Origin: Halobaculum sp. CBA1158 | GTDB lineage: Archaea; Halobacteriota; Halobacteria; Halobacteriales; Haloferacaceae | Assembly: GCF_021431925.1 (NCBI RefSeq) | Contig: NZ_CP090371.1 | Coordinates: 2,790,001 to 2,854,000, forward strand | Direction: 5' to 3' | Length of the DNA stretch: 64,000 nt | Part shown: positions 31,280-47,927 of the stretch, in pieces | Numbering within the stretch: position 1 is the stretch's first letter | How the letters are laid out: every line of letters begins with the position of its first letter | Made by a program: the position numbers and the translations under genes | The notes under the pieces: generated by a model | Told to the model about the DNA's origin: nothing | Database searches by the model: none | The model's input: only the letters and a program-made list of their open reading frames with translations

Positions 31280-31309
31280 GCGATCGAGGACGTGATCTGC
31301 CGGGGTTCG

Positions 31310-31963: not shown

Positions 31964-32052
31964 ACCTCGGGGGTCGCCGGAGCCGAGGATAGTAAGGAGT
32001 CGGCTACGCCCGCCCCGCAGGATACTTGTCGGGGTCGCCCCGATCGATTCGC

Positions 32053-33870
32053 GTGACGACACGTCTCCAAGTCGCGGCCGTGCTCGCGCTGGCGGTGGTG
32101 TGGACGGCGTCGCCGGTCGCCGCTGTCGGCGGCACGGCGCTCGCGGAACCGGGCGTCGACGGGGGCGTGGCGACCGCGGAGACGGGATCGGCCGAGGACG
32201 CCGCGACCGCGGAGACGGGATCGGCCGAGGACGCCGCGACCGCGGAGCCGGCGGATCCGAGGGCGACGCCGGCGGCGGTCGTCGACAGCGAGACGATCGA
32301 GGCCGAAACCGCCGACGCCGAGACGGCCGGTCGACTCCTCGCCTCGCGGACGACCACCCCGGTCGGGTCGCCGGTGTCGCTGGGCGTGGCGGACGCGAGC
32401 GCCGCGAACGAGTCGTGGACGCTGGCTGACGCCCCGGCCGAGAGCGACGCGCGGGTGTACGCCCACGGCGACACGGCGACGCTTCGGCCCGACGTCGCCG
32501 GGTCGTACACCGTGGGCGTCGAGACCGAGGACGGAACGACCCTGACCGCGACAGTACGGGCGCAAGGCACCGACCGGATCGACCTGCTGCGGCGGTACGC
32601 GCCGCTGGTGTCGTTCCACGAGAACGAGACGTACTACCCGACGCGCTACGAGTCGTTCGTGTACAACGCCGACCTGGAGGCACTCACCGCCGTCGACGAC
32701 CCGGAGCCGAGCATGTTCTCGCTCGCCGAGCGCAGCGACGGATGGGAGTTGGATCTCGACGACGGCGACTACGAGCGCTACGACGAGCGCTACCCGCCGA
32801 CCGTCTACGGGAGCGTCCACCGAGACGTCGAGTTCCGCGGCGAGACGTACACGGCGGTCACCTACTGGCTGTTCTACGTGTACGACCCGAAACAGCCGGG
32901 GTCGATCACCAGCCTGCTGGCCCACCAGAGCGACCTGGAGACGGTGACGGTGCTCGCGAACGACAGCGGGCCGCAGTGGCTGGCCGCCTCCCAACACTAC
33001 GGCGGCGAGCGCCGGGAGTGGCGCGCCGTCGACCGGGTCGACGGCCACCCGGCGGTGTATCCGGCGCTGGGGGCGCACTCGAACTACCTGCGTGACACCG
33101 GCGCGTTCGACGGCGACGGGATTCAGATCCAGCGCCAGTTCGTCAACGAGACGAGCACCGACACCGCGCTGTTCGAGCCCGCCGTCGGGATCCACGCCGA
33201 CCGCACGGGCGACGCGACGACGTGGAGCCACGACGGCTCGGTCGGCGTCGACTACCAGCTCGCGGTGCTCACCGGCGACGAGGTGTGGGCCAGTTACGAG
33301 GGGACGGTCGGACCCGAGGGCGAGGGCGGGCCGGTCCCGATGGCCCGCCAACGCTGGCGCGCGCCCGGCGAGTGGGTCGCCGGAAACACCGCAGCCGACG
33401 AGCGACAGATCGACGCCCGGTTCCAGTCGCTCCACTTCGACCACGCCCGCGACGCCGCAGCGGCGACGGTTCGGCTCGGGAACGTCGGCCCGAAGCCGCA
33501 CAGCTTCCGCGTCCGGTTGGAGGCGAAGCCCGTCGACGGCGGGTGGCACGAGGATGGGCGGGTGCTGAACGCGACGACGCTGCCGGTCGGTACCGACGCG
33601 ACGGCGGCCGCGACGCTCGAGGGGACGCCGCCGGCCGACGGCAGGTGGAACGTTCGCGTCCGGGTGCTCGCGTATCCGGAGTCGACGGGGGGGAGTGCGG
33701 AGTCCGTCGTCGTCTCCGATCCCGCGTCGTTCACGGTCGCCGTCGGTGAGGGACCGTTCGGCCTGCCGCTGTGGCTCCGTGAGCGCCTCCGAGAGGTCGC
33801 CGCGCCGCTCGCGCTCGCGGGCGTGCTCGGAGCGCTGTACGCGACGCTGTCACGGTTCGATAGCTCGTGA
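32053..33870 (+). CDS. exported VPS62-like surface protein, 605 aa
   Basis: A signal peptide (about 1-24), then an Ala/Glu/Thr-rich repeat segment, then from about residue 180 a domain beginning RYAPLVSFHENETYYPTRYE and including SQHYGGERREW and HPAVYPALGAHSNY. This set of motifs is typical of secreted VPS62/DUF946-like domains. A beta-rich module follows (about 450-560), and a C-terminal TM helix (about 575-597) anchors it outside the cell. Sequons are common. The GTG at 32053 is favoured over an upstream ATG because GATACTT lies 27-31 nt before it, and the signal peptide then sits at the N-terminus. Function unknown. Confidence 0.8.
   Translation: MTTRLQVAAVLALAVVWTASPVAAVGGTALAEPGVDGGVATAETGSAEDAATAETGSAEDAATAEPADPRATPAAVVDSETIEAETADAETAGRLLASRTTTPVGSPVSLGVADASAANESWTLADAPAESDARVYAHGDTATLRPDVAGSYTVGVETEDGTTLTATVRAQGTDRIDLLRRYAPLVSFHENETYYPTRYESFVYNADLEALTAVDDPEPSMFSLAERSDGWELDLDDGDYERYDERYPPTVYGSVHRDVEFRGETYTAVTYWLFYVYDPKQPGSITSLLAHQSDLETVTVLANDSGPQWLAASQHYGGERREWRAVDRVDGHPAVYPALGAHSNYLRDTGAFDGDGIQIQRQFVNETSTDTALFEPAVGIHADRTGDATTWSHDGSVGVDYQLAVLTGDEVWASYEGTVGPEGEGGPVPMARQRWRAPGEWVAGNTAADERQIDARFQSLHFDHARDAAAATVRLGNVGPKPHSFRVRLEAKPVDGGWHEDGRVLNATTLPVGTDATAAATLEGTPPADGRWNVRVRVLAYPESTGGSAESVVVSDPASFTVAVGEGPFGLPLWLRERLREVAAPLALAGVLGALYATLSRFDSS
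32170..32249. repeat. 33-bp in-frame tandem repeat
   Basis: Two identical 33-bp units (32170-32202 and 32203-32235, beginning GCGACCGCGGAGACG) and a partial third encode repeats of ATAETGSAEDA just after the signal peptide of the VPS62-like protein, extending a flexible spacer. Confidence 0.92.
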
Positions 33871-34010
33871 GGCGTGATCGGCGGTTGGAATTTCGCCTCC
33901 GAGACCCGGTCTCGACCGCCGGCCTCGCGCCGTCGGGGTATTATCGATCGCCTACCGAACGGAAACGAACCCAAAGGATGAATTTGTTCCGCATAACATG
34001 ACACGTCGTC

Positions 34011-35549
34011 ATGACAGAAACGGCCGGACAGTTCGGTGGCGGACTGTCGGGATCAGACGGGAAGAAGCTCATTATTCGCTTCCTCGCCATCCTGCTTGCC
34101 GCCCCGCTCGTCGGGTGGATGATGGCGCGCGCGTGGGTACCGAACAACCTCATATACGACCTCGTCGGGAACACGGTGCAGTCGATCCTCGAGGTCGACA
34201 ACAGGTTCATCGCGCTCCAGGTGGTCGGAAGCGCCGGGCTCGGCCTGTATCTCGGGTTCCTCCTCATCTTCCTGATCGACATCAAAAAGCGGGTACAGGG
34301 GACGCTGTTGCTGCTCGGAACGGTGCTCGGGCTCGTGGTGTTGACCGTCCAGGGCGTGTTGCTGCCGAACATCGACCTGGGCTACGTGCCGAACGTCGCC
34401 GCGTTCGCGCTGGCGTTCCTCGCGGCGATCGTCCTCGACATCGACAAACTGTTCAGCATCAGCCTGGAGGAGTCGACGCTCAAGCGACCCCGGACCGCGA
34501 GCGGCGAGATTCCCGAGTTCACCAACACCGCGCGGGCGCTGTTCGGAATCTTGTCGTTCGTGATCGTGCTCTCGCTCGTGCAGGTCGTGCTGGCTGGGGT
34601 GTTCCAGCCGACCGACGCGGTCGCGACGGTGGTGATGATCTTCCTCCTGTACAAGTTCATCCAATACGAGGTGAAGTCCAGCTACATGATGCTCGGCCCC
34701 TCGAAGTCGGGCAAGAGCATGGCGATGCTCGGCATGGCGCTGAAGATGTACGACACCGACGACGTGCAGCCGGACCCGAACCCGTACCTCCAGCGCGCGA
34801 TCGAACGCGCGAGCGACCCGGAGAACGCCGAGGACTGGCCGTTCCCGCAGACGGAGCAGCTGAACGAGACCAGCTTCCAGATGCTCGTCGGTAACCTCTT
34901 CCCGCGGCGCATGCGGCTGGTCGCGTACGACTACCCCGGACAGCTCCTCCCGCAGATCGCCGACCGCGTCGAGCACATGTCGTCGTCGTCGACGCTGTCG
35001 CGGCTCCCGTTCCTCGGCGGCGACGAGGCCCCGGACGTGCAGGCCGACGGTGGGGCCGTCGAGTCGGTCGACGACCAGGCGGGGCGGGTCGCGTCAGACC
35101 TGCTCGGCTCGGACATCCTCATGGTCGTGATCGACTGCGAGCGGCTCGTCCACCCCCAGGAGTTCGACGAGGCCGAGACGGGCGGACAGGACACCGGCCG
35201 GACGCTCGGGATCGAGTACTACAAGCCGATCCTGGAGAACTCGAACGTCGAGCACGTCGTCATCGCGGTCACGAAGGCCGACGTGTTGATCCACGACGAG
35301 TCGATCCCGGTCCAGCCGCCGTCCGCACACGGCGGCTTCACCGGCTTCAAGAGCGAAGTCAACGAGCTCCTCGGCGAGCGCTACGACATCCAGGAGCTCA
35401 AGCAGGCGCTCGAGGAGACGGAGGTCCAGCCGGTGTTCTACAAGACCGAGAAGCGCGACGGGGAGTACGTCCCCCTTCGCGACGCCTCGAACAACCTGAT
35501 TCCGGTGGGCTACGACAACCTCATCGAGTCGATTCAGCGGGGTGCCTGA
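34011..35549 (+). CDS. six-TM membrane GTPase-like P-loop protein
   Basis: A 512-residue protein with six TM helices (about 21-38, 68-90, 97-117, 125-143, 177-197 and 204-218), followed by a cytoplasmic NTPase domain. The domain has Walker A GPSKSGKS at 229-236, DYPGQ at 307-311 (a DxxG-like switch II), VVIDCE at 372-377 and TKAD at 421-424 (the guanine-specifying N/TKxD position). The order matches TRAFAC-class GTPases, and the general pattern (GPSxSGK, DxPG, TKAD) recalls the membrane-linked GTPases of multi-gene conflict systems, though that is inference. A Ser/Asp-rich insert lies at 324-358. The next gene starts 1 bp after its stop. It is the first gene of the trio. Confidence 0.8.
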   Translation: MTETAGQFGGGLSGSDGKKLIIRFLAILLAAPLVGWMMARAWVPNNLIYDLVGNTVQSILEVDNRFIALQVVGSAGLGLYLGFLLIFLIDIKKRVQGTLLLLGTVLGLVVLTVQGVLLPNIDLGYVPNVAAFALAFLAAIVLDIDKLFSISLEESTLKRPRTASGEIPEFTNTARALFGILSFVIVLSLVQVVLAGVFQPTDAVATVVMIFLLYKFIQYEVKSSYMMLGPSKSGKSMAMLGMALKMYDTDDVQPDPNPYLQRAIERASDPENAEDWPFPQTEQLNETSFQMLVGNLFPRRMRLVAYDYPGQLLPQIADRVEHMSSSSTLSRLPFLGGDEAPDVQADGGAVESVDDQAGRVASDLLGSDILMVVIDCERLVHPQEFDEAETGGQDTGRTLGIEYYKPILENSNVEHVVIAVTKADVLIHDESIPVQPPSAHGGFTGFKSEVNELLGERYDIQELKQALEETEVQPVFYKTEKRDGEYVPLRDASNNLIPVGYDNLIESIQRGA

Positions 35550-35550
35550 G

Positions 35551-36864
35551 ATGTCCGCGTTCACCGTCTACACCACCGACGCGAACCCGCAGTTGCTGTA
35601 CTCGGGCGAGCGCGCGACCGAAGCCGACGAGCGCGTCGACGGCTGGGTCGACCAGCTCGCGCGCGTCACCGGCCAGCCGGTCGATCTGTTCGTCGACGTG
35701 CCAGGCGGGCGCGTCGTCTGGACGATGCTCGCGACCCGCGGCGAGCGCGGGCGGACCGGGCGCTACCTCGCCGACTACACCGTCGACGGCGACGAGCCGA
35801 TCGCCGCGGTGTTCGACGGTCTCCACGACCGTCTCGCGGGCCTGCGCGACGGCGACGGGTGGACCTTCACCGCCGACGAGCCGCGCTGGCGCGCCGCCTT
35901 CGACCTGCCCGACCTGCCGGCGGCGTGTCCGGGACTCGACGACGCCGACGAGGACGCGCTCGCCGCGGCCGTCGGCGACGCCGACGGACAGCTCGTCGTC
36001 GGCATGTCCTCCTACGACGCGGCGCTTCGGACGGTGAAACACCTGACCGAACGCGGCGTCGCGGCGACGCTGGCGATCAACTCCGACGGCGCGACCGCCG
36101 AGACCGAGGGGGTCGATCTGGTGCTGTGGCCGGGTGCAGACGCCGATTTCGCGCCGATGGACGAGTCGACCCGCGACGCCCTCGTCGCGGCCGGGTTCGC
36201 CCCCGCACGCGAGACCGATGTCGTCGACGAGACGCCCGCCAGCGACCGCGCGGTCGTTCAGGATCGCCACGAGCGCCCCTCGGCGCTGGAGTCGTTCGTC
36301 GGCGACGGCATCGGTCGGATCGGCGTCGGCATGAGCGTCATCCTGTCGGTCGCGACCGTTGGGTCGCTGGCGGCGATCCAGTCGCTCTATCCCGCATCGG
36401 GTCTGTCGGCCATCGGCGGCGTTATCGGTGCCACCGCGGGGCTCGTCGCCTCCCGTGCCGGGCTTGACTCGATCGCGTCGGCGACACCCACGGAGACGGA
36501 TGGCGGCGCAGTCGACAGTAGCAACGACTGGGCCTGGCAGCAGTACGGCGCATTCTTCGGGTTCTACTTGCTGTTCGGGTACGCGTTCCTGACAGTATTC
36601 CGACTGGCGGGGTGGCCGTTCGGAGTAACGGAGTTTGTTGTACCGACAGCGCTATCAGCGGCCGTGTACGCGGGGGCGATCCTCCTGGTCAGCCTCGCGC
36701 TGCGCGTCGCCTGGGGCCTCCGGTCGGGCGAGTCCCCCGAGGCGACCGATCTGGTGCCGGTCGTCGCCATCAACGTCCTGTTCGGCGTCGGCCTCGTCGC
36801 TTCCACCGGGCTGGCGTGTGCGGTGTGGTACGGCGTGATCGGCTTCTCGGGCGGACCCTGTTGA
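35551..36864 (+). CDS. five-TM protein with N-terminal cytoplasmic domain, 437 aa
   Basis: Residues 1-245 form a soluble acidic domain starting SAFTVYTTDANPQLLYSGE, with alternating strands and helices. A stretch at 148-195 (VVGMSSYDAALRTVKHL, then VDLVLWPGADADF) could be a Rossmann-like half. Residues 257-430 hold about five TM helices. I do not recognise the family. The ATG at 35551 comes 1 bp after the GTPase stop, so the two are almost certainly translated together, and the soluble domain is a reasonable candidate partner or effector of the GTPase. An upstream GTG at 35542 would overlap and is less likely. Confidence 0.75.
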   Translation: MSAFTVYTTDANPQLLYSGERATEADERVDGWVDQLARVTGQPVDLFVDVPGGRVVWTMLATRGERGRTGRYLADYTVDGDEPIAAVFDGLHDRLAGLRDGDGWTFTADEPRWRAAFDLPDLPAACPGLDDADEDALAAAVGDADGQLVVGMSSYDAALRTVKHLTERGVAATLAINSDGATAETEGVDLVLWPGADADFAPMDESTRDALVAAGFAPARETDVVDETPASDRAVVQDRHERPSALESFVGDGIGRIGVGMSVILSVATVGSLAAIQSLYPASGLSAIGGVIGATAGLVASRAGLDSIASATPTETDGGAVDSSNDWAWQQYGAFFGFYLLFGYAFLTVFRLAGWPFGVTEFVVPTALSAAVYAGAILLVSLALRVAWGLRSGESPEATDLVPVVAINVLFGVGLVASTGLACAVWYGVIGFSGGPC

Positions 36865-36933
36865 GTCGCGAACCGGTCGGGTTCCCTCGTCGTCCGGTCG
36901 TTTCCCGGCCGGTAGCCGGGAACTAACCGGGAT

Positions 36934-36940
36934 CTTTTTG
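36934..36940 (+). promoter_or_regulatory. TATA box before the kinase-like gene
   Basis: CTTTTTG at 36934-36940 is about 20-26 nt upstream of the ATG at 36960, giving a leaderless or nearly leaderless transcript. It shows that the kinase-like gene can be transcribed separately from the GTPase pair. Confidence 0.55.
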
Positions 36941-36959
36941 CTATTCATTGTCTTACACT

Positions 36960-39065
36960 ATGCAACTCGTGGACGATCCCTCGTTTCAGACGTGGCTGCT
37001 CGGCTTGCCCGTCGGCGGGGCAGCGCTCTCGGCGGCCGTCGGCCTCGTCGTCCCCGGTGTCGGTCCGGTGCTGCTGGGCGGGGCCGGGCTCGCCGTCGGA
37101 GCGTGTCTGAGCGTCGCGATGGTGTATCTCGTGTCGACCGACGACTCGGCCTCGGATCCCGGCGGCAGCGGTCTCGCCGGAAGCGCTCCCGACGGACGCT
37201 CGAGTGCGACCGGGCCCGGGACGGCCCCGGTTCGGATCCGGGTCGTCGACGCGGTGAGCGGCGAGCTAGTGCGCGATCCGGTGTCGGTGCTGGCCGAGCA
37301 GTCCGTCATCGGTGACCGGCGCGAGTTCGCCGTCGAGAACGGCGAGGCGACGGTCGAACTCCGGACGCTGGGGTGGGATCTCACCGCCGCGTACGACGGC
37401 CGGCGGGCGACCGAGGCGGTCGCCGTCGGAGACGACGAGACCGTCGAGATCGCGATCCCGCCGACGCGGCTCCACGTCGCCGTCGCCGACCGCTCCGACG
37501 ACCCGCTCCCGACGGCGACGGTGTCGTGTCGGGCCGAGCCGACCGTCGCCGCCGCCGGCGACGCCGTCGCGGCCGAGCGCGACGACGCCACCCACACGGT
37601 CCCCCTCTCGGCGACCGCCGAGCGCGCGACCATCGCCGTCGAGCACCCGGAGTACGCGAGCGAGCGGACGGACGTGCTCCTCGACGGCGACGGCGACCAC
37701 CGGGCGACGGTGCGGCTCGAACGCCCCGCGACGACCGGCGAACCCGGCGGCGTCGACGACGTGGGGGCCGCCGCCGAGACGACGGCCGCGGACGCCGAGC
37801 CAGCGACGGCGGACGCGGAGCAGGCGGGCGCGAACGCGGAGACCGCGACCGCACCGGCCGCCGGGACGGGGGACGCCGGCGGCGACCCCGGTGCCGCCGG
37901 CGGCTCCGCGGCGTCGGCCGACGGGCGTGGCGACGGGGGAGCGGGCACGCCGAGCGCGTCGCCGGCGACCGGGACCGACCGACCGAGCGAGGGTGACGGG
38001 GAGAACGAGAGCGGCGGCGGAGCGCCCGGCGAGGGCGACGGTGCTTCCGGGACGGACGGCGACCCCGCTGCGGGGAACGACGATCCCGTCGTGGGGAACG
38101 ACGACCGGGCTGACGATCCGACCGACGACCCCGACGACGACGCGGGGAGCGACGGCGACCCGAACGTCGCCGACGGCGTCGAGATCGAGCGCGTCGGGGT
38201 GACTGGAATCGACCACCACCTCCCGTCGACCAGCCCGGACCCGCCGCGGATCGGTCTGGAACCGGCGCGCGTCGAGGCCGCCGACGAGGTGATCGCGGAG
38301 AACGACCACACCGCCCGCAAGCGGGTCGTCGCCGGCGACCGCGAGCTCGTCGTCACCGTCCCGAACGGCACCAAGGACGGCCGACGGACTGTGCGAACGA
38401 CCGCCGAGCGCGCCGACGAGTGGCGGGACATCGACCACCACCCGCACGTCGCGAAGCTGCTGGCGGCCGAGGCGGGTGACCGGCCGTATCTCGCGGTCGA
38501 ACGCGGCGACCGCACCGTCGAGAGCGTCGCCGGGGAGAGCGAACAGCGGACCGCGCTGTGGCTGGCCGCCTGCGTCGCCGACGCGGTCGCGACGGCTCAC
38601 CGTTCGGGCGTCTACCACCTGGATCTGGAGCCCGGGAACGTGCTGTTGCAGGACGTCGAGCGGGGCAGTTGGCCGGTGGCGAAGGTGACCGGCTGGGACC
38701 TCCCGCGGCTCACCGACCTCCCGTCGGACGTGTTCCGGCCGCTCGCGACCGCGCACGCGACGCCGGAGCAGTTGGACCACGAGGCGACCGTCGACGAGCG
38801 GACCGACGTGTACCAACTCGGCGTGTTGACCCACTACCTGCTCGTGGGCGAGACGCCGATGAACGGGGGCCACGCGGTCGATCGGACGAGCGCGTCGTCG
38901 GCTCCGATCCCGGCGATCACCGACCTCGACGCCGAACTCCACGGCGACCTCGACGCGATCCTCCGGCGCGCGACGGCCGTCGAGCCCGCGGCCCGCTACG
39001 GCACGGCCGACGAACTCCGCGAGGACCTCGTGGACGTGGCCGGGCGCGTCGCCGGATTCATCTGA
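36960..39065 (+). CDS. membrane-anchored protein kinase homologue, probable pseudokinase
   Basis: A 701-residue protein. Two TM helices (about 13-32 and 35-58) are followed by two beta-rich carboxypeptidase-regulatory-like modules (about 80-250), an acidic/Gly-rich disordered linker (about 250-400) and a Ser/Thr-kinase-like domain (about 430-700). HLDLEPGN at 553-560 is the catalytic loop and retains the Asp. ATPEQL, TDVYQLGVLTHYLL and a terminal ARYGTADEL match later subdomains. However, the usual VAIK lysine position reads VVTVP (T466), and the DFG position reads GWD (578-580), so ATP-Mg handling may be lost. It has its own promoter and converges on the VirB4 gene. It may be a signalling scaffold. 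Confidence 0.82.
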   Translation: MQLVDDPSFQTWLLGLPVGGAALSAAVGLVVPGVGPVLLGGAGLAVGACLSVAMVYLVSTDDSASDPGGSGLAGSAPDGRSSATGPGTAPVRIRVVDAVSGELVRDPVSVLAEQSVIGDRREFAVENGEATVELRTLGWDLTAAYDGRRATEAVAVGDDETVEIAIPPTRLHVAVADRSDDPLPTATVSCRAEPTVAAAGDAVAAERDDATHTVPLSATAERATIAVEHPEYASERTDVLLDGDGDHRATVRLERPATTGEPGGVDDVGAAAETTAADAEPATADAEQAGANAETATAPAAGTGDAGGDPGAAGGSAASADGRGDGGAGTPSASPATGTDRPSEGDGENESGGGAPGEGDGASGTDGDPAAGNDDPVVGNDDRADDPTDDPDDDAGSDGDPNVADGVEIERVGVTGIDHHLPSTSPDPPRIGLEPARVEAADEVIAENDHTARKRVVAGDRELVVTVPNGTKDGRRTVRTTAERADEWRDIDHHPHVAKLLAAEAGDRPYLAVERGDRTVESVAGESEQRTALWLAACVADAVATAHRSGVYHLDLEPGNVLLQDVERGSWPVAKVTGWDLPRLTDLPSDVFRPLATAHATPEQLDHEATVDERTDVYQLGVLTHYLLVGETPMNGGHAVDRTSASSAPIPAITDLDAELHGDLDAILRRATAVEPAARYGTADELREDLVDVAGRVAGFI

Positions 39066-39122
39066 GGGGTCGGAGAACGGGACGAGGCGAACAAAGCGCG
39101 TTGGAGGCGACGCGACGGAGCC

Positions 39123-41378
39123 TTATCCCTGCAGTTCCGCGCGGACGCCGGGGCGTTCCGCCTCGGGGATGTAGTCCCAGTCGATGAGCCCCTGGTCGTA
39201 GAGGTACGCCCAGGGGTTCTCGGCGGTCTCGATGACGCTGTGCTCGTAGCCGTTCGAGAGCACCTTGAGTCGGATCTTTCCGACGTCGGTGACGTACAGC
39301 AGCGACTGGCTGTAGTTGGCGGAGTTGCCGGCCTGTGCCTGGATGACGTACCGACGCTCGCGATCGGTCAGGTCCAGCGCCTCCAGCGCCTCGTCGCCGA
39401 TGTTCTCGTGGCGCATGAGCGCGCGGATGTCACACTGGTCGTAGATCGCCTTCGCCGACTCGTTTTTCATGAACTCGTCGACGGTCTGGCTGATGAGCGT
39501 CATGCCGGAGTCGTAGTGGCGGCTGTGGCGCGCGAACAGCTCCAGCATGCGAAGCGGCTCCTCCTGGCCGAGCATGTAGTGGGCCTCGTCGATGACGACG
39601 AGCGTCTTCCCGTCGTTGGCGCGGGCGCGCTGGAACAGCCAGTCGAGGACGACGTGCATCATCAGCGGCGTCCCGCCCTGCGTGCGGGCCTGCGAGAGGT
39701 CGAACTGGACGACGCGGTCGTGCAGTTGGACGTTGGACTCGCCGTTGAGGTTCTGATTCTGCCCGCCTTCCTGGAAGTCCTCGAGTCCCAGTAGGACGTT
39801 GTGCGCGTGGTCGGCGACCTTCTGGCCGGCCTCGCTGCCCTCGGCCATCTCGATCGACTCGATGAACGGTTCGTGCTCGGGTGGCACGTCCATGAACTCG
39901 CTGGGACTGTTGCCGTCGGCGAACGCCCTGAGTACGTCGAGGACGGTCTGGACGGTCGGACTGTCGTTGTGGTGAGTGGACACGTCCGGGGTGATCCCGT
40001 GGCGGAGGTACGCGAGCCGCACGGCCCGTCGGAGGATTCCCTCCTCTTCTTTGGTCAGCTCCCGGCGACCCTCGAAGTGGGTGTGGAACAGCCCCATCAC
40101 CGAGCGGATCTTCTGCTCGTAGGGGTTGAGGTCGAGCTCCTCGTCGGCCTCGTCGACGTCGCTGTCCTGCAGTTCGAGGGGATTGATCACGCTGGACCCG
40201 CCCACCTGGACGCGCTGGCCGCCGATGGCGTCGACGAGGTCGGACATCCCCCCGACGGGGTCGATGATGAGGACGTCCGTGTCGGGGTCCATCTGGAGGC
40301 GACGCCAGACCGCCAGCTTCGCCAGATAGGACTTCCCCGACCCGATCTTTCCGGAGATGAGCATGTTGTGCCCCGAGAGGTCGAAGCGGTCGACGACGAC
40401 CGGCGTACCGGTCACGTCGTGAAAGCCCAACAGGACGCCGGAGGGCTGAACGACGCTCGGCTCGATGAACGGGAACGTGGTTCCGAGCGCGTTCGTGTCC
40501 ATCACCTGCGTGTTGCGGACCTTGTCGCGACCCAGCGGGGCGACCGACGCCTGCCCGTCGAGCTGGCGGTCGTACAGCGGCGTGACGCGGGCGTTGCTCT
40601 GGGCGAACACCTGCCTGACGCGTGCGGTCCGCTCGTCGAGGTCCTCCTCGTCGTCGGCGATGACCTCGATGTACAGCGCGAAGTCGAACAGGCTGGTGTT
40701 GCCGCGAGTGACCTGCTCGCGGAGGCGCTCGATCTCCTCGAGCTGCTGCTCCTCCTCTGTGGTGTTGATGTTGCCCTTCTCGCGTTTGTCGCGGATCTGT
40801 CCCCGCAGGCGCGTGTTCCGGATGTTCAGCTTCCGGAGCATCGAGTCGGGGTCGCGCGGCCAGGTGTGATAGGAGATGCGGATGTTCGTGTCGCCGGCGA
40901 ACAGCTGGTCGAGCCAGCCGTAGGAGACCCGCGAGGGGAAACTGGAGACGATCAGTTGGCGGACGTACTTCTCCTCGCCGTTCTCGCCGCGGCGGACGAT
41001 GTGCGACTCGTGCTCCTCGACTTTGTCCGGTGCGACCGCGACGCGCTGGGCGTCGCCCTGCGTCTCCGGCGACCGCACGGCGCGCGAGGGCTTCTCCGAG
41101 GCCGCCTCGCTTCTGATCTCCTCGATGACCTCCCAGAGGTTCGCGCCGGTGACCTCCTCGCCGCGGCGGTCGAGGCGTCGCGCCGCCTCGTCCAGGAGTG
41201 CCTGGTCGAGGTCCTCGAAGTCGTCGTCGTCGTCCGCCTCCCCGGCGGCCTCGCTCTCGCCGCCGCCCGACAGTCCGGGGATGTAGTCGGCGATGCCGGC
41301 GACGAGCACGAGCGCGCCCGCGAGCGCGAGCGGTCCCTCGAGCGCGAGCGCCGGAACGGCGATGCCGAGTCCGGTCAC
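39123..41378 (-). CDS. VirB4-family type IV secretion ATPase
   Basis: A 751-residue protein with an N-terminal hydrophobic helix (about 8-30), an acidic linker, a VirB4-like N-domain segment (about 135-285), and a RecA-like motor. The motor has Walker A GKIGSGKS at 343-350, Walker B VVIDEAH at 594-600 and the TraC/VirB4 motif SGMTLISQTVDEF near 624-636. VirB4 proteins power assembly or substrate transfer in type IV secretion and conjugation. It is the last gene of its operon, and its ATG overlaps the preceding TGA (ATGA). No VirD4 coupling ATPase is nearby. Chromosomal context and partners make a dedicated apparatus more likely than a plasmid. Confidence 0.9.
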   Translation of the reverse strand: MTGLGIAVPALALEGPLALAGALVLVAGIADYIPGLSGGGESEAAGEADDDDDFEDLDQALLDEAARRLDRRGEEVTGANLWEVIEEIRSEAASEKPSRAVRSPETQGDAQRVAVAPDKVEEHESHIVRRGENGEEKYVRQLIVSSFPSRVSYGWLDQLFAGDTNIRISYHTWPRDPDSMLRKLNIRNTRLRGQIRDKREKGNINTTEEEQQLEEIERLREQVTRGNTSLFDFALYIEVIADDEEDLDERTARVRQVFAQSNARVTPLYDRQLDGQASVAPLGRDKVRNTQVMDTNALGTTFPFIEPSVVQPSGVLLGFHDVTGTPVVVDRFDLSGHNMLISGKIGSGKSYLAKLAVWRRLQMDPDTDVLIIDPVGGMSDLVDAIGGQRVQVGGSSVINPLELQDSDVDEADEELDLNPYEQKIRSVMGLFHTHFEGRRELTKEEEGILRRAVRLAYLRHGITPDVSTHHNDSPTVQTVLDVLRAFADGNSPSEFMDVPPEHEPFIESIEMAEGSEAGQKVADHAHNVLLGLEDFQEGGQNQNLNGESNVQLHDRVVQFDLSQARTQGGTPLMMHVVLDWLFQRARANDGKTLVVIDEAHYMLGQEEPLRMLELFARHSRHYDSGMTLISQTVDEFMKNESAKAIYDQCDIRALMRHENIGDEALEALDLTDRERRYVIQAQAGNSANYSQSLLYVTDVGKIRLKVLSNGYEHSVIETAENPWAYLYDQGLIDWDYIPEAERPGVRAELQG

Positions 41379-42715
41379 GGCTCCTCACCCCCCTCGCCCA
41401 CGTCGCCGTAGTCGGGGCGCATGAGGTCGTCCACCTCGAACCCCTCGACGTTCAACTCGGTGTCGGCGTCGAACTCGGTTCGGCGACCCACATCGAAGGC
41501 CGCTCGTTCGGGACGGGCGTTGTTGTAGTAGTGGTAGATCACGGAGAGCGCCTCGTCGCGGTCGGTGATCGGGTCGACGGTCACGTCGATCTGTCGGAGC
41601 GCGCTGCGGACCTGATTCAGGCGCTTGCTCACCTCGCGGACGCACTCCTCGCGGCTGGCCTCGCCCGCGTCGGCGTCGTCCGAGGAGAACAGCGACTCGA
41701 CCGCCGAGACGATCGACCCGAAGGCGGCCGCGCTCTCGCCGACCTTGTCCGAGAGGCTCTCGGACTCGTCGAACTGCCGCAGCGACGACGGGTCGACGCG
41801 GACGATCACGTAGTACTCGCGCTGAGTGAGCTCCTCCTCTTCGATGAAACTCGTGAGCCACCGGGGGTACAGCTGTCGGCCGTACTGGACCAGCGGCGAC
41901 TCGTCGGCCGCGTTCGACCGCTCGCGCATGCGCTCTTCGAGGCGGTCGATGTGCTCGCTGGTGTCGAACTCCGTCGGGTAACAGACGATCTGCGTGTAGA
42001 AGTCCAGCGAGGAGAGGAATCCCGACTGATACGACTGGAGGATCTGGTGTTTCTTCTCCTGCGTGTGGATGCTCCAGCTTCGCGGAGTCACCCGGGCCAT
42101 CCCGACGTAGTCGCCGCTTTGGGTCAACACGATCCCGTCCGCGTTGACCGACTGCGGGGCGAAGTCGTCGCCGGAGTCGAAGACGTACTCGAAGTCGACG
42201 AGGTCCTGCGTGTAGTTGCGCGTCCCCATCGGCCCCTGCAGCGCGGGGTCCGTCTCCTCGGGCCGCCGTCGCTCGGCGGTCTCGCCTGGCGAGCGCGACG
42301 CCTGATCGACCGCCGAACTCGCGGCCGTCGAGGGACCGTCATCGCCGAACGGCGACGAGTCGGGGGCCGGCGTCGGCTCCCGGCCGGTCTCGTCGGCCGG
42401 CTCGGTGTCCGTCGATTCTCCAGTATCGCCGTCGGCAGGTTCGACTCCGTCGACGGCTCCGCCGCCGACCGCGTCGCCGCCGGCGTCGCGGTCGGTCGAC
42501 ACCGCGGTCGCCTGCTCGAATCCCGACGCGTCGTCGCCGCCGCCGGCGGCGTCCGGTGTGCCCTCGTCGAACCCGTCGAAGCCATCGGCGTCGCCGGCGG
42601 AGCCGTCGCCGCCGGCGTCCGACGACCCGGACCCGGGGCCCGATCCCTCGTTAGTCGTGGACGTGTCGCCCCACGGGTTGTTCTGCTCGTCGTCGCCGTC
42701 GTCGTTCCCGCTCAT
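41375..42715 (-). CDS. separate VirB4 N-domain-like protein, 446 aa
   Basis: The first 160 residues are acidic, Gly/Ser-rich and probably disordered. From about 165 a folded domain begins (YTQDLVDFEYVF), with DGIVLTQSGDYVGMARVTPRSWSIHTQEKKHQILQSY split over short blocks. This resembles the N-terminal domain that precedes the motor in VirB4/TraC proteins (strand-rich, then a helical bundle), but no Walker motifs follow. The gene overlaps its neighbours by 4 bp at both ends, so it is translated in step with the VirB3-like and VirB4 genes. The likely interpretation is a VirB4 whose accessory domain is carried by a separate subunit. Confidence 0.75.
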   Translation of the reverse strand: MSGNDDGDDEQNNPWGDTSTTNEGSGPGSGSSDAGGDGSAGDADGFDGFDEGTPDAAGGGDDASGFEQATAVSTDRDAGGDAVGGGAVDGVEPADGDTGESTDTEPADETGREPTPAPDSSPFGDDGPSTAASSAVDQASRSPGETAERRRPEETDPALQGPMGTRNYTQDLVDFEYVFDSGDDFAPQSVNADGIVLTQSGDYVGMARVTPRSWSIHTQEKKHQILQSYQSGFLSSLDFYTQIVCYPTEFDTSEHIDRLEERMRERSNAADESPLVQYGRQLYPRWLTSFIEEEELTQREYYVIVRVDPSSLRQFDESESLSDKVGESAAAFGSIVSAVESLFSSDDADAGEASREECVREVSKRLNQVRSALRQIDVTVDPITDRDEALSVIYHYYNNARPERAAFDVGRRTEFDADTELNVEGFEVDDLMRPDYGDVGEGGEEP

Positions 42716-43104
42716 CGCTCGCTCCCGTCCGGGTCGGGTTGCTCGTCGATCGGTTCGCCGCCGTCGGTCGCGGCCGAGTGGCGCACCGACAGGTACGTGC
42801 TCCTGTCGTAGCCCATCTCGTCGGGGCGCAGGTAGTACGTGTCCGGGCCGAGTCGCCGCCGCAGCGCCGCCGGAGCCCACGAGGTCGGACTCTGACCCTC
42901 GGGCGTGCTGACGACGATACCGACCATGACGAGCCCGGCAACTACCGCGGTACCGATGCTCACGAGGAGCGGTACCTGTTCGATGAACAGACTCGGAAGC
43001 ATGACCACGAGCGGAATCGACGCCATCAAGATGATCTCGTCGAACGAGAGCCCGAAGGCCACGTCGTCCTCGAGGATCCGTCCGGGAATCGGGACCGTTC
43101 TCAT
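42712..43104 (-). CDS. VirB3/PrgI-like small membrane protein
   Basis: A 130-residue protein with two adjacent TM helices (about 24-41 and 45-66), preceded by a short polar leader and followed by a cytoplasmic tail containing YLRPDEMGYDRSTYL. Size, topology and position directly before VirB4 match the VirB3/PrgI proteins of type IV secretion, which recruit VirB4 to the membrane; sequence similarity itself is weak. Its own TATA box (43138-43143) lies upstream, and its TGA overlaps the ATG of the following gene. Confidence 0.7.
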   Translation of the reverse strand: MRTVPIPGRILEDDVAFGLSFDEIILMASIPLVVMLPSLFIEQVPLLVSIGTAVVAGLVMVGIVVSTPEGQSPTSWAPAALRRRLGPDTYYLRPDEMGYDRSTYLSVRHSAATDGGEPIDEQPDPDGSER

Positions 43105-43137
43105 ACTAGTTCAATCCATGATACTTCCTCTGGGTGT

Positions 43138-43143
43138 TATATG
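43138..43143 (-). promoter_or_regulatory. TATA box of the VirB3-VirB4 half operon
   Basis: ATATAA on the minus strand, about 34-39 nt upstream of the ATG at 43104, in a 95-bp gap of low GC. It predicts a transcript with a leader of about 10 nt and lets the ATPase genes be expressed apart from the upstream membrane genes. Confidence 0.55.
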
Positions 43144-43199
43144 TACCGTTAGGTATCAGATAACGCCGCGTGGAATTTGTCGGACGCGAGGGCGGCGGG

Positions 43200-43925
43200 T
43201 CAGTTGACCTGGTCCTCGAGGTGTTTCACGTCCTCGTAGTCGGGCATCTTCCCGTGGCCGTCGACCTGGCACTCCTCGGGGGGCTCCTCGCCCATCGAGA
43301 AGTAGATATCCCGTATCTGACACCGGAAGTGGTGAATCAGGAACTCCCGGAACCGCTCGCTGAACTCGAACTCGAAGTTCAGCTGCGGCAGTTCGATCGC
43401 GAGGTCGGCGACGCGCCCGCGCGAGGGCTGTTGGCCGACCCACTCGTACTCGTCGGGTGCCCGCTCGACGAGCACGAGTACGTCGGAGACGTGTTCGATC
43501 GAGCGGCGGTCGGGTGTGAGGTAGATCAGCTGTGTGATCACGTCGATCGCTTCGGGTTCGGCACCGACCGCCGGGTCCCGAAGCCGGTGGTACGTCTGCC
43601 GGAACAGCCGGGCGAACTCGTCGTCGCTGAGCGACTGGATCACCTCGATCCCGTCGGCGATGACCCGCGGATCCCAGTTGGGGTCGAAGACCTCGAGTCC
43701 GCCCTCCCAATGTGCTTCGTACTGTGCGCGCCGCTGGACGTGGTGGACGGTCTGCTTGCGCTCGTCACTCAAGTCATCGAATGACGCCGGCCAGTCGTCC
43801 GGTGACTCGTGTGTGCTGATCTCACCGTCCCCCTCCATGACAACGACCTTGTGCACCTCACCCTCGTTGTCGACAACCCGAACACCGACTCTGTCGTCCG
43901 CAGTTCCCAATATGCTGACGTTCAT
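43200..43925 (-). CDS. soluble acidic hypothetical protein in the secretion operon, 241 aa
   Basis: A 241-residue cytoplasmic-looking protein. A short beta-rich start (MNVSILGTADDRVGVRVV) is followed by a mainly helical body with a long charged segment and a cluster near the C-terminus containing HHFRCQIRDIYFSM and PEECQVDG. No family is recognised. Its ATG overlaps the TGA of the VirB6-like gene (ATGA), so expression is coupled. Given this position it may be a chaperone, substrate or regulatory subunit of the apparatus; there is no direct evidence for any of these. Confidence 0.7.
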   Translation of the reverse strand: MNVSILGTADDRVGVRVVDNEGEVHKVVVMEGDGEISTHESPDDWPASFDDLSDERKQTVHHVQRRAQYEAHWEGGLEVFDPNWDPRVIADGIEVIQSLSDDEFARLFRQTYHRLRDPAVGAEPEAIDVITQLIYLTPDRRSIEHVSDVLVLVERAPDEYEWVGQQPSRGRVADLAIELPQLNFEFEFSERFREFLIHHFRCQIRDIYFSMGEEPPEECQVDGHGKMPDYEDVKHLEDQVN

Positions 43926-45643
43926 TCAGCAATCACCTGTTGGTCGACCTCGTCCGTTCCGCTTTCGTATCCGGACTCGCCGGTGTCCGCGGTCCGACTG
44001 GACTTCGACGTGGCGAGCTCCTGCACCGAGCCGGCGATGTCCTTGCCGGCGTTGATCGAGCGGTCCGCCACGTCCATCGCCCCTCCCTTGGCCGACTCGA
44101 CGGCACTCTCGGCGCCGCCGAAGTCGTTATCGTACAGCGATTCGGACGCTGCCCCACCAGCCACCTTGATCGCCTCTCCCCCGACAGCGCCGGCAGCGCC
44201 CGTAGCGGCGCCTGCTACCGTCCCGAGTGGCGTGGCGGCTGACCCGATGGCCGCACCGCCGGCGGCTCCCTGCACGGCCGCTCCCATGAGGGAGTCCTTG
44301 TTCTCTTTGAGCTCCGAAACGGCGTCGCTCCCGGCCTGCTTCAGCTTCTCTCCCGTGCTCATGTTCTCGGCGTCGGCCTGCGCTCCGCCGCCGGCCGGCG
44401 ATTGCGTTTCGCCGCCTCCGGAAGCCCGGTCGAGTTTCTGTTGGGAGCCGGCCGCTGCGCCGGCCGCGCCGCCCCCGCCGAAGGAGTTCTGCGAGCTGCT
44501 CGGCTCGAACTCGGCGGTCGTGGCACCGCCGTCGGCGGTGACGCCGCGGCCGGTGTCGGGCGCGCCGCCGGCGTCGCCGGTGGCACCGCCGCCTCCGCCC
44601 CCAACGTCGGGTTCACCGCCGTCCCCGCCGCCGCCTCCACCGCCGAGCAGTCCGGAGCCCCCCGAACTACCGGATCCGCCCGAGCTACCGGTTATTCCCC
44701 CGGCGACCGCGCCGGCGACGGCCCCGCCGATCGCTGAGGTCGTTCCGCCGGTGAGCGAGGAGAGTCCGAACAACACGAGCGTCGTCGACAGCGTCATCGC
44801 GCCGCCGATGCCGATCACCGGCGTGATGTTCACGTACTCGAACGGTCCGGCGGTGATGATCTGCGTGTCGCTTTGCGCGATGACGATCCCCGCGTTCAGC
44901 GTCGCCGCGATGAACACGCCCGCGACGAGCGTCATCCCCGTCGCCTTGAGGAACAGGTCGCTCACCTTCTTTCCGTACTTTCCGACGCCCATGTCGAAGA
45001 TCCAGAAGGCGGCCAGCAGCGGAAACAGTCCGAACGTGGCGTAGACGATAAACACCCGAAAGAGCAACAACGCGAGGAAGATCGCGAGACCGACCAGGAT
45101 CGTCGAGCCGATCGTCAACGCGACGATGATCGCCGCGGCACCGGTGATGGCCGCCGACTCCGGGTCCGTGAGGATCGATCCGAAGGCGTCAACCACCGAA
45201 CTGGCGTTCGGATAGAAGAACCGCCCGAGGACGTTCGTGAACTCGACGGCAGTACTGACCGCCTGCCGGCCGACGACCGCCATCACGACGCCGACGAACG
45301 AGCGTTCGAGCAGCCGGTAGGGATCGGCTTTCGTGCTGGGGTACACCTGAATACTGAGTAGCGTGACGAGCCATCCGATCCCGAGAATGAAGACGAACGC
45401 CGTGAGCGACCGGTCGTAGAGGTCACCGAGGTCGTTCGCGGGGCCGGGCTGTCCGAACTCGCTCGGTTCGGTGAAGAACAGCAGTTGCTCGACGACTTCG
45501 AGGAGGAACTGGAGGATTCCGAAGAGCGCCTCGTAGGCGTTCCGCAACAGGTTCTCGAACGCCTGTCCGACGAGACTTCCGCCGAGGACAAGCGGAGAGG
45601 GTTGCGTCGCCGTGATCTCCGCTAACAGACTCGCTCCGATCAT
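43922..45643 (-). CDS. VirB6/TrbL-like polytopic membrane protein
   Basis: A 573-residue protein with about seven hydrophobic segments in the first half (near 38-57, 79-99, 115-135, 165-190, 190-215, 233-256 and 272-295), then a Gly/Ser/Ala-rich tail (about 300-480) and a charged C-terminus. The central membrane core with a long low-complexity tail is the architecture of VirB6/TrbL-type channel proteins of type IV secretion systems, and the gene sits where such a protein is expected. Assignment rests on topology and context rather than motifs. GGAG about 8 nt before the ATG could act as a ribosome-binding site. Confidence 0.72.
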   Translation of the reverse strand: MIGASLLAEITATQPSPLVLGGSLVGQAFENLLRNAYEALFGILQFLLEVVEQLLFFTEPSEFGQPGPANDLGDLYDRSLTAFVFILGIGWLVTLLSIQVYPSTKADPYRLLERSFVGVVMAVVGRQAVSTAVEFTNVLGRFFYPNASSVVDAFGSILTDPESAAITGAAAIIVALTIGSTILVGLAIFLALLLFRVFIVYATFGLFPLLAAFWIFDMGVGKYGKKVSDLFLKATGMTLVAGVFIAATLNAGIVIAQSDTQIITAGPFEYVNITPVIGIGGAMTLSTTLVLFGLSSLTGGTTSAIGGAVAGAVAGGITGSSGGSGSSGGSGLLGGGGGGGDGGEPDVGGGGGGATGDAGGAPDTGRGVTADGGATTAEFEPSSSQNSFGGGGAAGAAAGSQQKLDRASGGGETQSPAGGGAQADAENMSTGEKLKQAGSDAVSELKENKDSLMGAAVQGAAGGAAIGSAATPLGTVAGAATGAAGAVGGEAIKVAGGAASESLYDNDFGGAESAVESAKGGAMDVADRSINAGKDIAGSVQELATSKSSRTADTGESGYESGTDEVDQQVIAE

Positions 45644-45708
45644 CGTTGTTCTCCAGCCATTCGGTCTGGCCGATAGTTACCGATTAGTGTCATAATTGTT
45701 GTGGTCAG

Positions 45709-47460
45709 CTATCGTCGTTCGTTGATCCGGCGGACGAGGAAGTACCCGATGAAGAACGGAGTGGCGAACGCGAGCCACCTGACGAGGTCGATGATGCTGG
45801 CGATCAGGCCGTCGGCGTCGGTGGCGATCAGCCGTTCGCTACTCTCGCCGTAGTACGGTCCGTCGACCGTACCGGACCGGATATCCGCACGCCAGGGATC
45901 CCCGTCGAACGATGCCGAGACGTACGTCGACGTCTGTTCGACGGTCGCCGTCCCGTCGTCGCCAGTCACGACCGTATCGCTCGCGGCCCCTTGTACGGAG
46001 AGCTCACGATCAGCCAGTCCCGTCCCGGTGGTGGCGTTCTGCAGCCGGAACGTCACCTCGCCGTCGGACTGCTCGACGATCTCGATCGAGGATCGGCGAA
46101 CCGTCACGGTCGGCTCGGATTCGACCGGCACGTCGCGTCCGAACAGGTCGGTCGCATCCAGGATCTGACTCGGAACCCCGGCGATGAACATGCTGTCGAC
46201 CACCGTCGGCTCCGTCGTTGTCATGTTGACCTGCGGTCCGAGCGTCGGCTCCTCGTCGGCGATCTGCGACTGTTCGACCGTCTCGATTCGGGGGCTGGTC
46301 GGCTCGTCCACCGCCTCGGTGTCGACGACGCTCTGCGGGCGGGCGTACGAACTCGTCAACTTCGTCTCCAACACGTGCGGGAAGTCGAACGTCTCGGTGT
46401 CTCCGGAGTCCGTGGCGATGTGCCCGTGCGTGTACCTAGTCGTCGAGTAGATTCCCCAGTTGTTCTCGATCTGCGTGCCCGAACTGAAGTTGAGCCGCGA
46501 CCAGATCTGGCGGTCCGTGATCGACTCCGGACCGTCGAACCGTACCGCGAGATAGCCCGTGGACTGCCCCTCGATGTCGACGTACCGTTGGGAGATCGTC
46601 GCCTCCTGGTCGTCGACCACGCGGACGGTCGCAGTATCGCGAACAGTAACGCTACCGGCCTCTTGCTGTCTCGGTTCCTCGTCGACGATACTCCCGTTTT
46701 CGTTTCGGGTGATAACCGTGTAATCCATCACCGCGACGATGGTGGTCTCGATCGTCAGCGTCACCTCGCCATCGCCGTTCGCGCCGGCGTAGTCGATGAC
46801 TCGGCCCTCCGGGTCCTCGGTTGCACTCCCGACCTCGCGGCCGTTGATCGTGACGACTCGACGCTCCACGCCCGTCTCGTCCTCGTTTATCTCCTGATCT
46901 GTCACCTCGTTCGTGAAGTTCCCCGGGGCTGAGTCGACATCCGGTTCGGGGAGGTTTCCGTCGTCGATGCGGTAATCGAGGAAGTTGAGCACCCGGCCGT
47001 CGGCGGGAATGAACTCCTGATCGGTTCCGTCGATCGGGGTCACCGGAGTCGCACCTTCGACGGTACCGAGATACGTCACGTGTGCGTCCTTGATCACTCC
47101 GGTGGCTGAGTCGCGAAGCCGTGATTCGGGGAGGTACTTGCTCGTCGAGTCGTTTCGGTCAACGCCGCGGAGTTGTTCGATACGGTAGTCGCTGTAGGAG
47201 CGGTCGTCCGAACCGAACGACCGATCCGTGGTGCGGTAGTAGATGTCGAACGCGGCACCCAACTGGGCGAGGTCCGAGGAGTTCGTATCCGCGATCGACT
47301 GGTCATCCGGATCGTCGGCGTAGAATATTCGCTCGGGTCCCGTCGGCCACTCGTCTACCGGTCGGTCGTCGGCGAGCGCGAGCGGGGCCACGCCGGCGCT
47401 GAGTACCATCGCGACCGCGACGAGCGCGGCGAGTTGGCGATGCCGGGCCGAGCGAGCCAT
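45709..47460 (-). CDS. exported anchored surface protein of the secretion operon, 583 aa
   Basis: A Sec signal peptide (about 1-30, ending LALA-D), a large ectodomain of beta-rich character with many Asn-x-Thr/Ser sequons, and a single C-terminal TM helix (about 557-577) with a basic RRINERR tail. The ectodomain shows no recognised fold, but a late segment (TGTGLADRELSVQG with TGDDGTATVEQTS) looks like an Ig-like/regulatory beta module. It starts 1 bp after the stop of the pilin-like gene. A surface-exposed anchor or adhesin of the apparatus is the natural guess. Confidence 0.75.
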   Translation of the reverse strand: MARSARHRQLAALVAVAMVLSAGVAPLALADDRPVDEWPTGPERIFYADDPDDQSIADTNSSDLAQLGAAFDIYYRTTDRSFGSDDRSYSDYRIEQLRGVDRNDSTSKYLPESRLRDSATGVIKDAHVTYLGTVEGATPVTPIDGTDQEFIPADGRVLNFLDYRIDDGNLPEPDVDSAPGNFTNEVTDQEINEDETGVERRVVTINGREVGSATEDPEGRVIDYAGANGDGEVTLTIETTIVAVMDYTVITRNENGSIVDEEPRQQEAGSVTVRDTATVRVVDDQEATISQRYVDIEGQSTGYLAVRFDGPESITDRQIWSRLNFSSGTQIENNWGIYSTTRYTHGHIATDSGDTETFDFPHVLETKLTSSYARPQSVVDTEAVDEPTSPRIETVEQSQIADEEPTLGPQVNMTTTEPTVVDSMFIAGVPSQILDATDLFGRDVPVESEPTVTVRRSSIEIVEQSDGEVTFRLQNATTGTGLADRELSVQGAASDTVVTGDDGTATVEQTSTYVSASFDGDPWRADIRSGTVDGPYYGESSERLIATDADGLIASIIDLVRWLAFATPFFIGYFLVRRINERR

Positions 47461-47461
47461 G

Positions 47462-47827
47462 TCAGAACAGCGTCGCCTGGATCAAGCCGACCGCGACCTG
47501 GATGATCGCCGCACCGGCGAGCGCGATGAAGGTGTTCCGGATGCGCGTCTTGCCCTTCTGCAGTTTCTCCTCGTTCGCACCCGCAGTCATCCATTGCAAC
47601 AGGCCGAACGCGCCGTTCGGCACCGCGACCGCGCCGATGACGAGGACGAGCAGATCGGCGATCTGCTGGAACTGGTCCTGAATCTGCTGCTCGCGTTCCT
47701 CCTGCGTGGGCGTCGGTGTGTGATTGTCTGCTGCGACGGGAACGGCCATGATTCCCAAGACGATCGAAATCAGCGCGAGGAACTTCACCGCACGCATCGG
47801 AGCAGAACCGCCCGCAGTTGCTGTCAT
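47462..47827 (-). CDS. VirB2/TrbC-like pilin-type membrane protein
   Basis: A 121-residue protein with a signal peptide (about 11-33, cleavage after VAA), a short Thr/Gln-rich stretch, and two TM helices (about 56-80 and 98-120) joined by a basic cytoplasmic loop (EEKLQKGKTRIRN). The helix, glycine-containing WMTAGANEEKLQKGK turn and second helix match VirB2-type subunits of Gram-positive and archaeal conjugation systems. The ATG at 47827 is chosen; a TTG six bases upstream is also possible. A strong AT-rich TATA element at 47855-47865 lies about 28-38 nt upstream. It is the first gene of the secretion operon. Confidence 0.7.
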   Translation of the reverse strand: MTATAGGSAPMRAVKFLALISIVLGIMAVPVAADNHTPTPTQEEREQQIQDQFQQIADLLVLVIGAVAVPNGAFGLLQWMTAGANEEKLQKGKTRIRNTFIALAGAAIIQVAVGLIQATLF

Positions 47828-47854
47828 GAACAAATACGGCGTCGTCAGAGCATC

Positions 47855-47865
47855 AATTAAATATA
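47855..47865 (-). promoter_or_regulatory. promoter of the type IV secretion-like operon
   Basis: TATATTTAATT on the minus strand, one of the most AT-rich stretches in the window, predicts transcription start near 47834 and a leader of about 7 nt before the VirB2-like ATG. The strong box suggests this operon is transcribed on its own rather than from the MoxR operon upstream. Confidence 0.72.
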
Positions 47866-47927
47866 CTGGATTTCTACCCGACAGATAGTAGCAAATAATG
47901 TAGTAGTTACGTGGTATCTAAGCGGCC

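Follow-up and report, generated by a model that had tools for sequence, protein, structure and literature searches.

The weapons of archaea are barely known. In 2024, haloarchaea were shown to deliver toxins in a contact-dependent manner through a contractile system (PMC11566945). Among type IV secretion systems (T4SSs), the bacteria-killing systems of Xanthomonas and Stenotrophomonas have been proposed to deliver toxins and are accompanied by adjacent cognate immunity genes (PMC10933484, PMC6759196). Crenarchaeota have reduced chromosomal T4SSs, named Ced and Ted, with homologues of VirB2, VirB6, and VirB4 (PMC9905601). Here, we analyzed a T4SS gene cluster in a stretch of 64,000 nt from Halobaculum sp. 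CBA1158 (positions 2,790,001-2,854,000 of NZ_CP090371.1, assembly GCF_021431925.1), hereafter called the window, which covers 2.790-2.854 Mb of the 2.886-Mb main contig in a genome of 3.32 Mb. All seven open reading frames (ORFs) listed in a preliminary description were present on the minus strand and encoded, in order of transcription, VirB2, a surface anchor protein, VirB6, a 241-residue "orphan," a VirB3-like protein, the N-terminal domain of VirB4, and VirB4. This seven-gene set is a minimal T4SS. We consider it fairly probable that this branch of T4SSs has been repurposed for contact-dependent antagonism, with an effector fused to VirB6.

The cluster resembles FATA-type (CD1110/TraC-like) T4SSs of monoderm bacteria and archaeal plasmids in its VirB4 lineage, its VirB2, VirB3-like, and VirB6 components, and the lack of outer-membrane parts. 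In contrast to these systems, no adjacent type IV coupling protein (T4CP) or relaxase was recognised among the neighbors scanned, its VirB4 was split, and its VirB6 carried a swappable tail with a partner gene. Relative to Ced and Ted, the cluster has in addition a VirB3-like protein, an ORF of its own for the VirB4 N-domain, a surface protein with an anchor, and a polymorphic tail with its partner, and it was an island rather than fixed in the lineage. The effectors of Xanthomonas and Stenotrophomonas are separate proteins recognised by means of a conserved C-terminal signal, whereas here VirB6 itself carries the proposed effector and a coupling protein is not linked. Haloarchaeal contractile injection systems (CISs) or type VI secretion systems (T6SSs) have DUF4157 toxin-immunity pairs (PMC11566945), and genes of the same partner family lie directly behind eCIS_core effectors in related species; the cluster, in contrast, encodes a T4SS and not a contractile tail. 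Polymorphic toxins of the contact-dependent inhibition (CDI) and Rhs types likewise combine a conserved carrier with a variable C-terminal domain, a cognate downstream gene, and spare C-terminal cassettes (PMC3482391); unlike them, the system described here is archaeal, its carrier is a T4SS channel protein, and one partner family takes the place of many unrelated immunity families. Searches of the open-access literature yielded no account of archaeal effectors fused to VirB6, with subscription papers, including a 2019 survey of archaeal polymorphic toxins, outside the scope of the search.

The VirB6 tail and its partner gene

The third gene of the cluster (43922..45643, minus strand, as are all features of the seven genes) encoded a VirB6-like channel protein of 573 residues with a C-terminal extension. 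In the AlphaFold2 (AF2) model, the core at residues 20-300 was well predicted, with a predicted local distance difference test (pLDDT) score mostly of 65-94. The R388 TrwI/VirB6 protein provided the two best Foldseek matches (probability 0.98) and the top VIA match (Z 9.9, root-mean-square deviation 5.2 over 241 residues), the next unrelated row being a designed protein at Z 9.4. Because this VIA margin is slight, the identification as VirB6, which agrees with the preliminary description, rests on the Foldseek rank together with homology and gene order. A VirB6 homologue in another haloarchaeal family (locus L038, family f9) matched TrbL_3 (PF19590, E 3e-28), and the homologues of the window clade matched no family in Pfam, NCBIfam, PHROGs, or PADLOC. 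A Gly/Ser/Asp-rich linker, predicted to be disordered (44360..44719; pLDDT below 50 through most of residues 301-428), joined the core to a tail of approximately residues 429-573 (43922..44359), the proposed toxin domain. Tails adjoining a partner gene had a common layout of Gly/Ala-rich hydrophobic helices, an amphipathic helix, and a short variable end, without being close in sequence across loci. Helices were predicted at residues 430-464, 489-502, and 510-551 of the window tail, with low confidence.

The gene that follows (43200..43925) encoded the soluble, acidic protein of 241 residues, which we propose to be an immunity protein on the basis of family pairing and co-diversification. It had been regarded as an orphan in the preliminary description, but it belongs to a large family whose members are the cognate partners both of tails on VirB6 and of effectors of contractile injection. 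A profile search identified members in 51 of the 392 haloarchaeal genomes of the order, many of which had numerous copies, and none outside the order in a sample of the phylum. The protein matched no family in Pfam, NCBIfam, PHROGs, or PADLOC. Comparison with PDB yielded nothing convincing (best Foldseek E 0.17; best VIA Z 4.6 over 62 residues; sequence search E 0.55), a result that does not prove a new fold. The AF2 model (pLDDT 85.8, predicted TM-score 0.84) contained an N-terminal beta domain at residues 1-45 (43791..43925) and a C-terminal alpha/beta domain at residues 54-230 (43236..43766). The former co-varied with the last 10 residues of the effector and the latter with the tail body, and the split of the model independently agreed with the module boundary derived from co-variation.

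In 16 T4SS-type loci, the partner gene was found on the same strand at -26 to about 200 bases after a long-tailed VirB6 or a tail-only ORF, start positions being uncertain because genes of the relatives were called by a codon-bias ORF caller. The exceptions were two isolated copies, one each in L097 and L101, and some copies within arrays of L090 and L093. Intact long-tailed VirB6 genes were followed by the partner, apart from an 835-residue VirB6 in L090 with no partner directly behind it, and tailless VirB6 paralogues of up to 510 residues had none. A short VirB6 in L089, apparently an exception and fused to the partner, was rejected as an assembly gap. Spare tail-partner cassettes lacking the VirB6 core were identified in relatives (L088, L089, L091, L092, L093, L094, L095, and L037); the window itself had one tail-partner pair only.

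Tails and partners were found to have diversified together. The identity of tail bodies correlated with that of their partners in 38 T4SS pairs (r = 0.74) and 80 CIS pairs (r = 0.62), with 0/1000 permutations, these and the following values being correlations between related sequences with significance by permutation only. When non-redundant pairs were used, the body was coupled to partner residues 81-end (r = 0.57 and 0.52) and the last 10 tail residues to partner residues 1-45 (r = 0.28 and 0.47), with 0/1000 permutations in each case, and hardly any correlation was seen between the two partner modules themselves (r = 0.01 and 0.10). Within single genomes, the body and the C-terminal domain of the partner gave r = 0.87 and 0.88 (0/2000 permutations made within genomes). 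Since the comparison stays inside single genomes, relatedness between organisms is no explanation for these values. As a control, each tail was paired with the partner of the neighboring cassette, and r fell to 0.35 and 0.09. Physical linkage is a poor explanation for the coupling of body and C-terminal domain, because the far module was coupled across an exchanged intermediate block, whereas it could still account for the coupling of the last residues with the N-terminal domain, both of which are adjacent in the DNA. The possibility that the last residues alone set the partner was rejected, since the body dominated and the last residues tracked the first 45 residues of the partner.

Exchange of tails was evident between close relatives. 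The VirB6 cores of genomes G131 and G167 were 86% identical and their tails 28%, and the tail type of G131 was present as a spare cassette (83%) in G167. Similarly, G204 and G207 had cores with 87% and tails with 38% identity, the tail type of G207 being a spare cassette (81%) in G204. Tail swapping of this kind, together with co-diversification with a cognate partner, marks polymorphic toxins and their immunity proteins and is the defining property of polymorphic toxin systems (PMC3482391).

Genome G003 (L037 9215-15529 and L095 5734-15892) contained a truncated VirB4, yet eight genes of the partner family, most with tail cassettes. The machinery in this genome decays and the cassettes persist.

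Partner genes in contractile injection systems

Genes of the partner family also followed those of DUF4157 proteins in Natrinema, Natrialba, Halomicrobium, and Haloferax, and eCIS_core was confirmed in all of the tested DUF4157 effectors preceding a partner (8/8). One copy was located inside the contractile-injection cluster of Haloferax larsenii. This species and H. elongans, whose loci recur in genomes G247 and G351, belong to the same family as the genome of the window, Haloferacaceae. Haloferax elongans, which kills H. volcanii on contact (PMC11566945), also carries DUF4157-partner pairs. Of the DUF4157 proteins secreted by the T6SS of Halogeometricum, two are toxic and are neutralised by the products of downstream genes (PMC11566945). 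By analogy with the DUF4157 toxins of H. borinquense, the partner family would have an immunity role. The preliminary description left the function of the cluster as secretion, uptake, or cell contact; the T4SS itself stands, but because the supposed orphan family is the partner of both VirB6 tails and CIS effectors, the best explanation is now toxin delivery and no longer secretion or uptake in general.

Between five and eight genes of the partner family were found in tandem in L085 (3593-9462), L086 (7752-13084), and L087 (7227-11508). They sit behind one eCIS_core protein or its remnant with no further effectors, and look like immunity arrays. In addition, L104 (8267-10143) and L088 (1430-5509) had the same flanking genes, with contractile-type pairs in one family and a T4SS-type locus in another, as if contractile and T4SS weapons used one chromosomal site.

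The secretion apparatus and its island

The remaining genes supported the assignment as a reduced T4SS made in the preliminary description. The VirB2-like pilin (47462..47827, 121 residues), which starts with ATG (an alternative TTG at 47833 is possible), had a signal-like N-terminus and two hydrophobic helices. It matched T4SS_pilin (PF18895) with E 5.4e-6, just above the Pfam cut-off, and was 51-56% identical across about 70 residues to the pilins of sister clusters. The secreted, C-terminally anchored surface protein (45709..47460, 583 residues) matched no family in Pfam, NCBIfam, PHROGs, or PADLOC, and its homologues in sister T4SS clusters (22-26% identity) adjoined VirB2. The VirB3/PrgI-like membrane protein (42712..43104, 130 residues) matched PrgI (PF12666) with E 0.003, below the Pfam cut-off, and was 31-46% identical in blastp to genes at the VirB3 position of related clusters. 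This position is conserved, and VirB3 was fused ahead of VirB4 in L038. The ORF for the VirB4 N-terminal domain (41375..42715, 446 residues) showed weak matches to the N-terminal part of four VirB4-type models and aligned with residues 138-326 of the natural VirB3-VirB4 fusion of L038; because of this match to the N-terminal part of the fusion, VirB4 is regarded as split into two ORFs. The VirB4 ATPase (39123..41378, 751 residues) matched the TraG P-loop family (PF19044, E 1e-10), the CD1110 VirB4 family (E 3e-69), and the solved VirB4 structure 4ag5 (E 1e-13).

The genes were tightly packed, with a spacer of 1 base between the VirB2 and anchor genes, as the preliminary description had it. Two of the three ATGA overlaps reported there were found, at VirB6/orphan (43922-43925) and VirB3/VirB4 N-domain (42712-42715); the third, at the junction of the two VirB4 ORFs (41375-41378), is GTGA. 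Clusters of the same type recurred in related genomes, and therefore the arrangement of the seven genes is not due to chance.

The cluster lay in an inserted island, delimited approximately by sibling synteny and GC content at 31280..47927 and also containing a group of GTPase-like and kinase genes. The flanking genes, on the DUF58 side (30293-31279) and MoxR (47928-48902), were neighbors separated by 72-105 bases in the sibling species G150, G152, and G154, and about 16.6 kb lay between them in the window. The GC content of the T4SS part was 63-70%, compared with 71-79% in much of the flanks, and a close VirB4 was found in none of 10 sibling species. The view that the machine is chromosomally fixed, including its ancient fixation, is thus not supported for this lineage. 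Elsewhere, related clusters are residents of the chromosome; in genus g43, for example, three species carry the T4SS or what is left of it at one site.

Within the island, positions 34011-39065 encoded a P-loop GTPase-like membrane protein, a membrane protein of 437 residues, and a serine/threonine kinase. The kinase domain resembled PD-T4-6 defence kinases (PADLOC E 3e-23), and these genes possibly form a separate defence or signalling group. The kinase gene (36960-39065) was considered as an ancestral neighbor of the cluster and rejected, since it is absent from the siblings too. A different insert was located between the MoxR and DUF58-side genes of G148 (L199 4962-8559), making the site a small insertion hotspot.

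No T4CP, relaxase, or integrase was recognised among the neighboring genes profile-scanned on both sides, a scan limited to part of the genes in the window. The absence of VirD4 and relaxase beside the cluster, noted in the preliminary description, therefore held for these neighbors, and the fetched loci of the same VirB4 clade also lacked a T4CP. In the VirB4 tree, the partner-bearing clade (the window, G131, G167, G201, G204, G207, and G286; support 100/99) spanned several genera and at least two families, with the long branches of the tree outside it. Its sister clade (G098, G116, and G108) had a coupling protein: directly after VirB4 were a T4CP-like ATPase of about 1300-1400 residues (the one of G098 showed a Walker A motif), a primase-like protein, and a protein of 501 residues. 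These three were not found in the fetched partner-bearing loci, and their homologues were also present in other plasmid-type loci. The plasmid contig C3 of the same genome (L046 28-11394) harbored a conjugation-type T4SS with an anchor homologue, VirB4, and a 1469-residue ORF with T4CP homology.

Proposed function and alternative explanations

The antagonistic system that we favor would have originated from a haloarchaeal conjugation machine whose coupling protein and relaxase were lost or were never beside the cluster. The two-piece VirB4, VirB3, and VirB6 would build the portion in the inner membrane, VirB2 would make up a short pilus or conduit, and the anchored protein would be exposed as the surface portion. 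As its cargo, the machine would carry the VirB6 tail, a helical domain that is hydrophobic and rich in Gly and might insert in the target membrane, and no coupling protein would be needed because the cargo is fused to a component of the machine. The product of the next gene, translationally coupled through ATGA, would be the cognate immunity protein that protects the producing cell and its kin from the tail, its C-terminal domain fitting the tail body and its N-terminal domain the last residues of the tail, and tail and immunity genes may be exchanged as cassettes. We give roughly even chances to the more specific proposal that the T4SS payload is the swappable VirB6 extension, neutralised by a two-module immunity family common to the haloarchaeal contractile system, with the body/C-domain and last-residues/N-domain combinations reshuffled separately by recombination. 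If true, a VirB6-fused payload would represent a new delivery logic for T4SSs that explains function without a coupling protein, and one immunity family would link two unrelated archaeal injection machines and provide a genomic handle for finding further weapons. The specificity code between tail and partner is directly testable in laboratory haloarchaea.

Several observations weigh against this proposal. The window tail is only moderately hydrophobic (maximum Kyte-Doolittle value 1.18) and is a single sequence with no close relatives, and family-library scans detected neither an enzyme motif nor a known toxin family in it. In some relatives, intact cassettes sit next to machinery that has decayed. 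No member of the partner family was found in several haloarchaeal genomes that have another type of sheath, and hence other immunity families exist. It is also possible that a T4CP is supplied in trans from plasmid C3.

The main rival is that the VirB6 tail regulates the channel or pilus and that the 241-residue protein serves this tail as a chaperone, adaptor, or gate. The partner looks cytosolic and is translationally coupled to VirB6, and the co-variation suggests adaptor-like contacts with both the body and the extreme end of the tail. We nevertheless regard this role as rather unlikely, as two features are characteristic of immunity genes and hard to reconcile with a chaperone, namely the spare cassettes of tail and partner that lack the VirB6 core and the tandem arrays of partner genes alone after a single eCIS effector (L085-L087), and as the tails vary while the core of the machine is conserved. 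That the cluster is a decaying conjugative remnant, which lost its coupling protein and relaxase and is now functionless or mobilised in trans by the T4SS of contig C3, appears very unlikely. Such decay would fit the island nature and lower GC content, the T4CP-like ATPase and primase-like gene downstream in the sister VirB4 clade, the truncated VirB4 of G003, and the loss of most machinery in G277; however, none of the seven genes in the window is broken, their spacing is tight, with overlaps, and the T4CP is missing from the fetched loci across several genera and at least two families, so that its loss is not a recent decay here.

It is unlikely as well that the window encodes a domesticated DNA-exchange apparatus like the crenarchaeal Ced and Ted systems, which move chromosomal DNA between cells without a relaxase or VirD4. 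The reduced set of VirB2, VirB6, and VirB4 homologues is the same (PMC9905601), but descriptions of Ced and Ted include neither polymorphic VirB6 tails nor a family of cognate partners; moreover, the window cluster is an island absent from siblings, and relatives of the partner accompany injected effectors. A fixed version without a partner does exist in a small uncultivated haloarchaeal family, in which all four genomes (G009, G037, G025, and G048) had the VirB3-VirB4 fusion. In the three neighborhoods that were read (L038 5030-12159, L181, and L182), the fusion gene and VirB6 lay together next to rfcS/ileS, the pilin and anchor genes were present where the contig reached, and the partner gene and coupling protein were absent. 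A domesticated system resembling Ced is therefore more plausible for this locus than for the window cluster.

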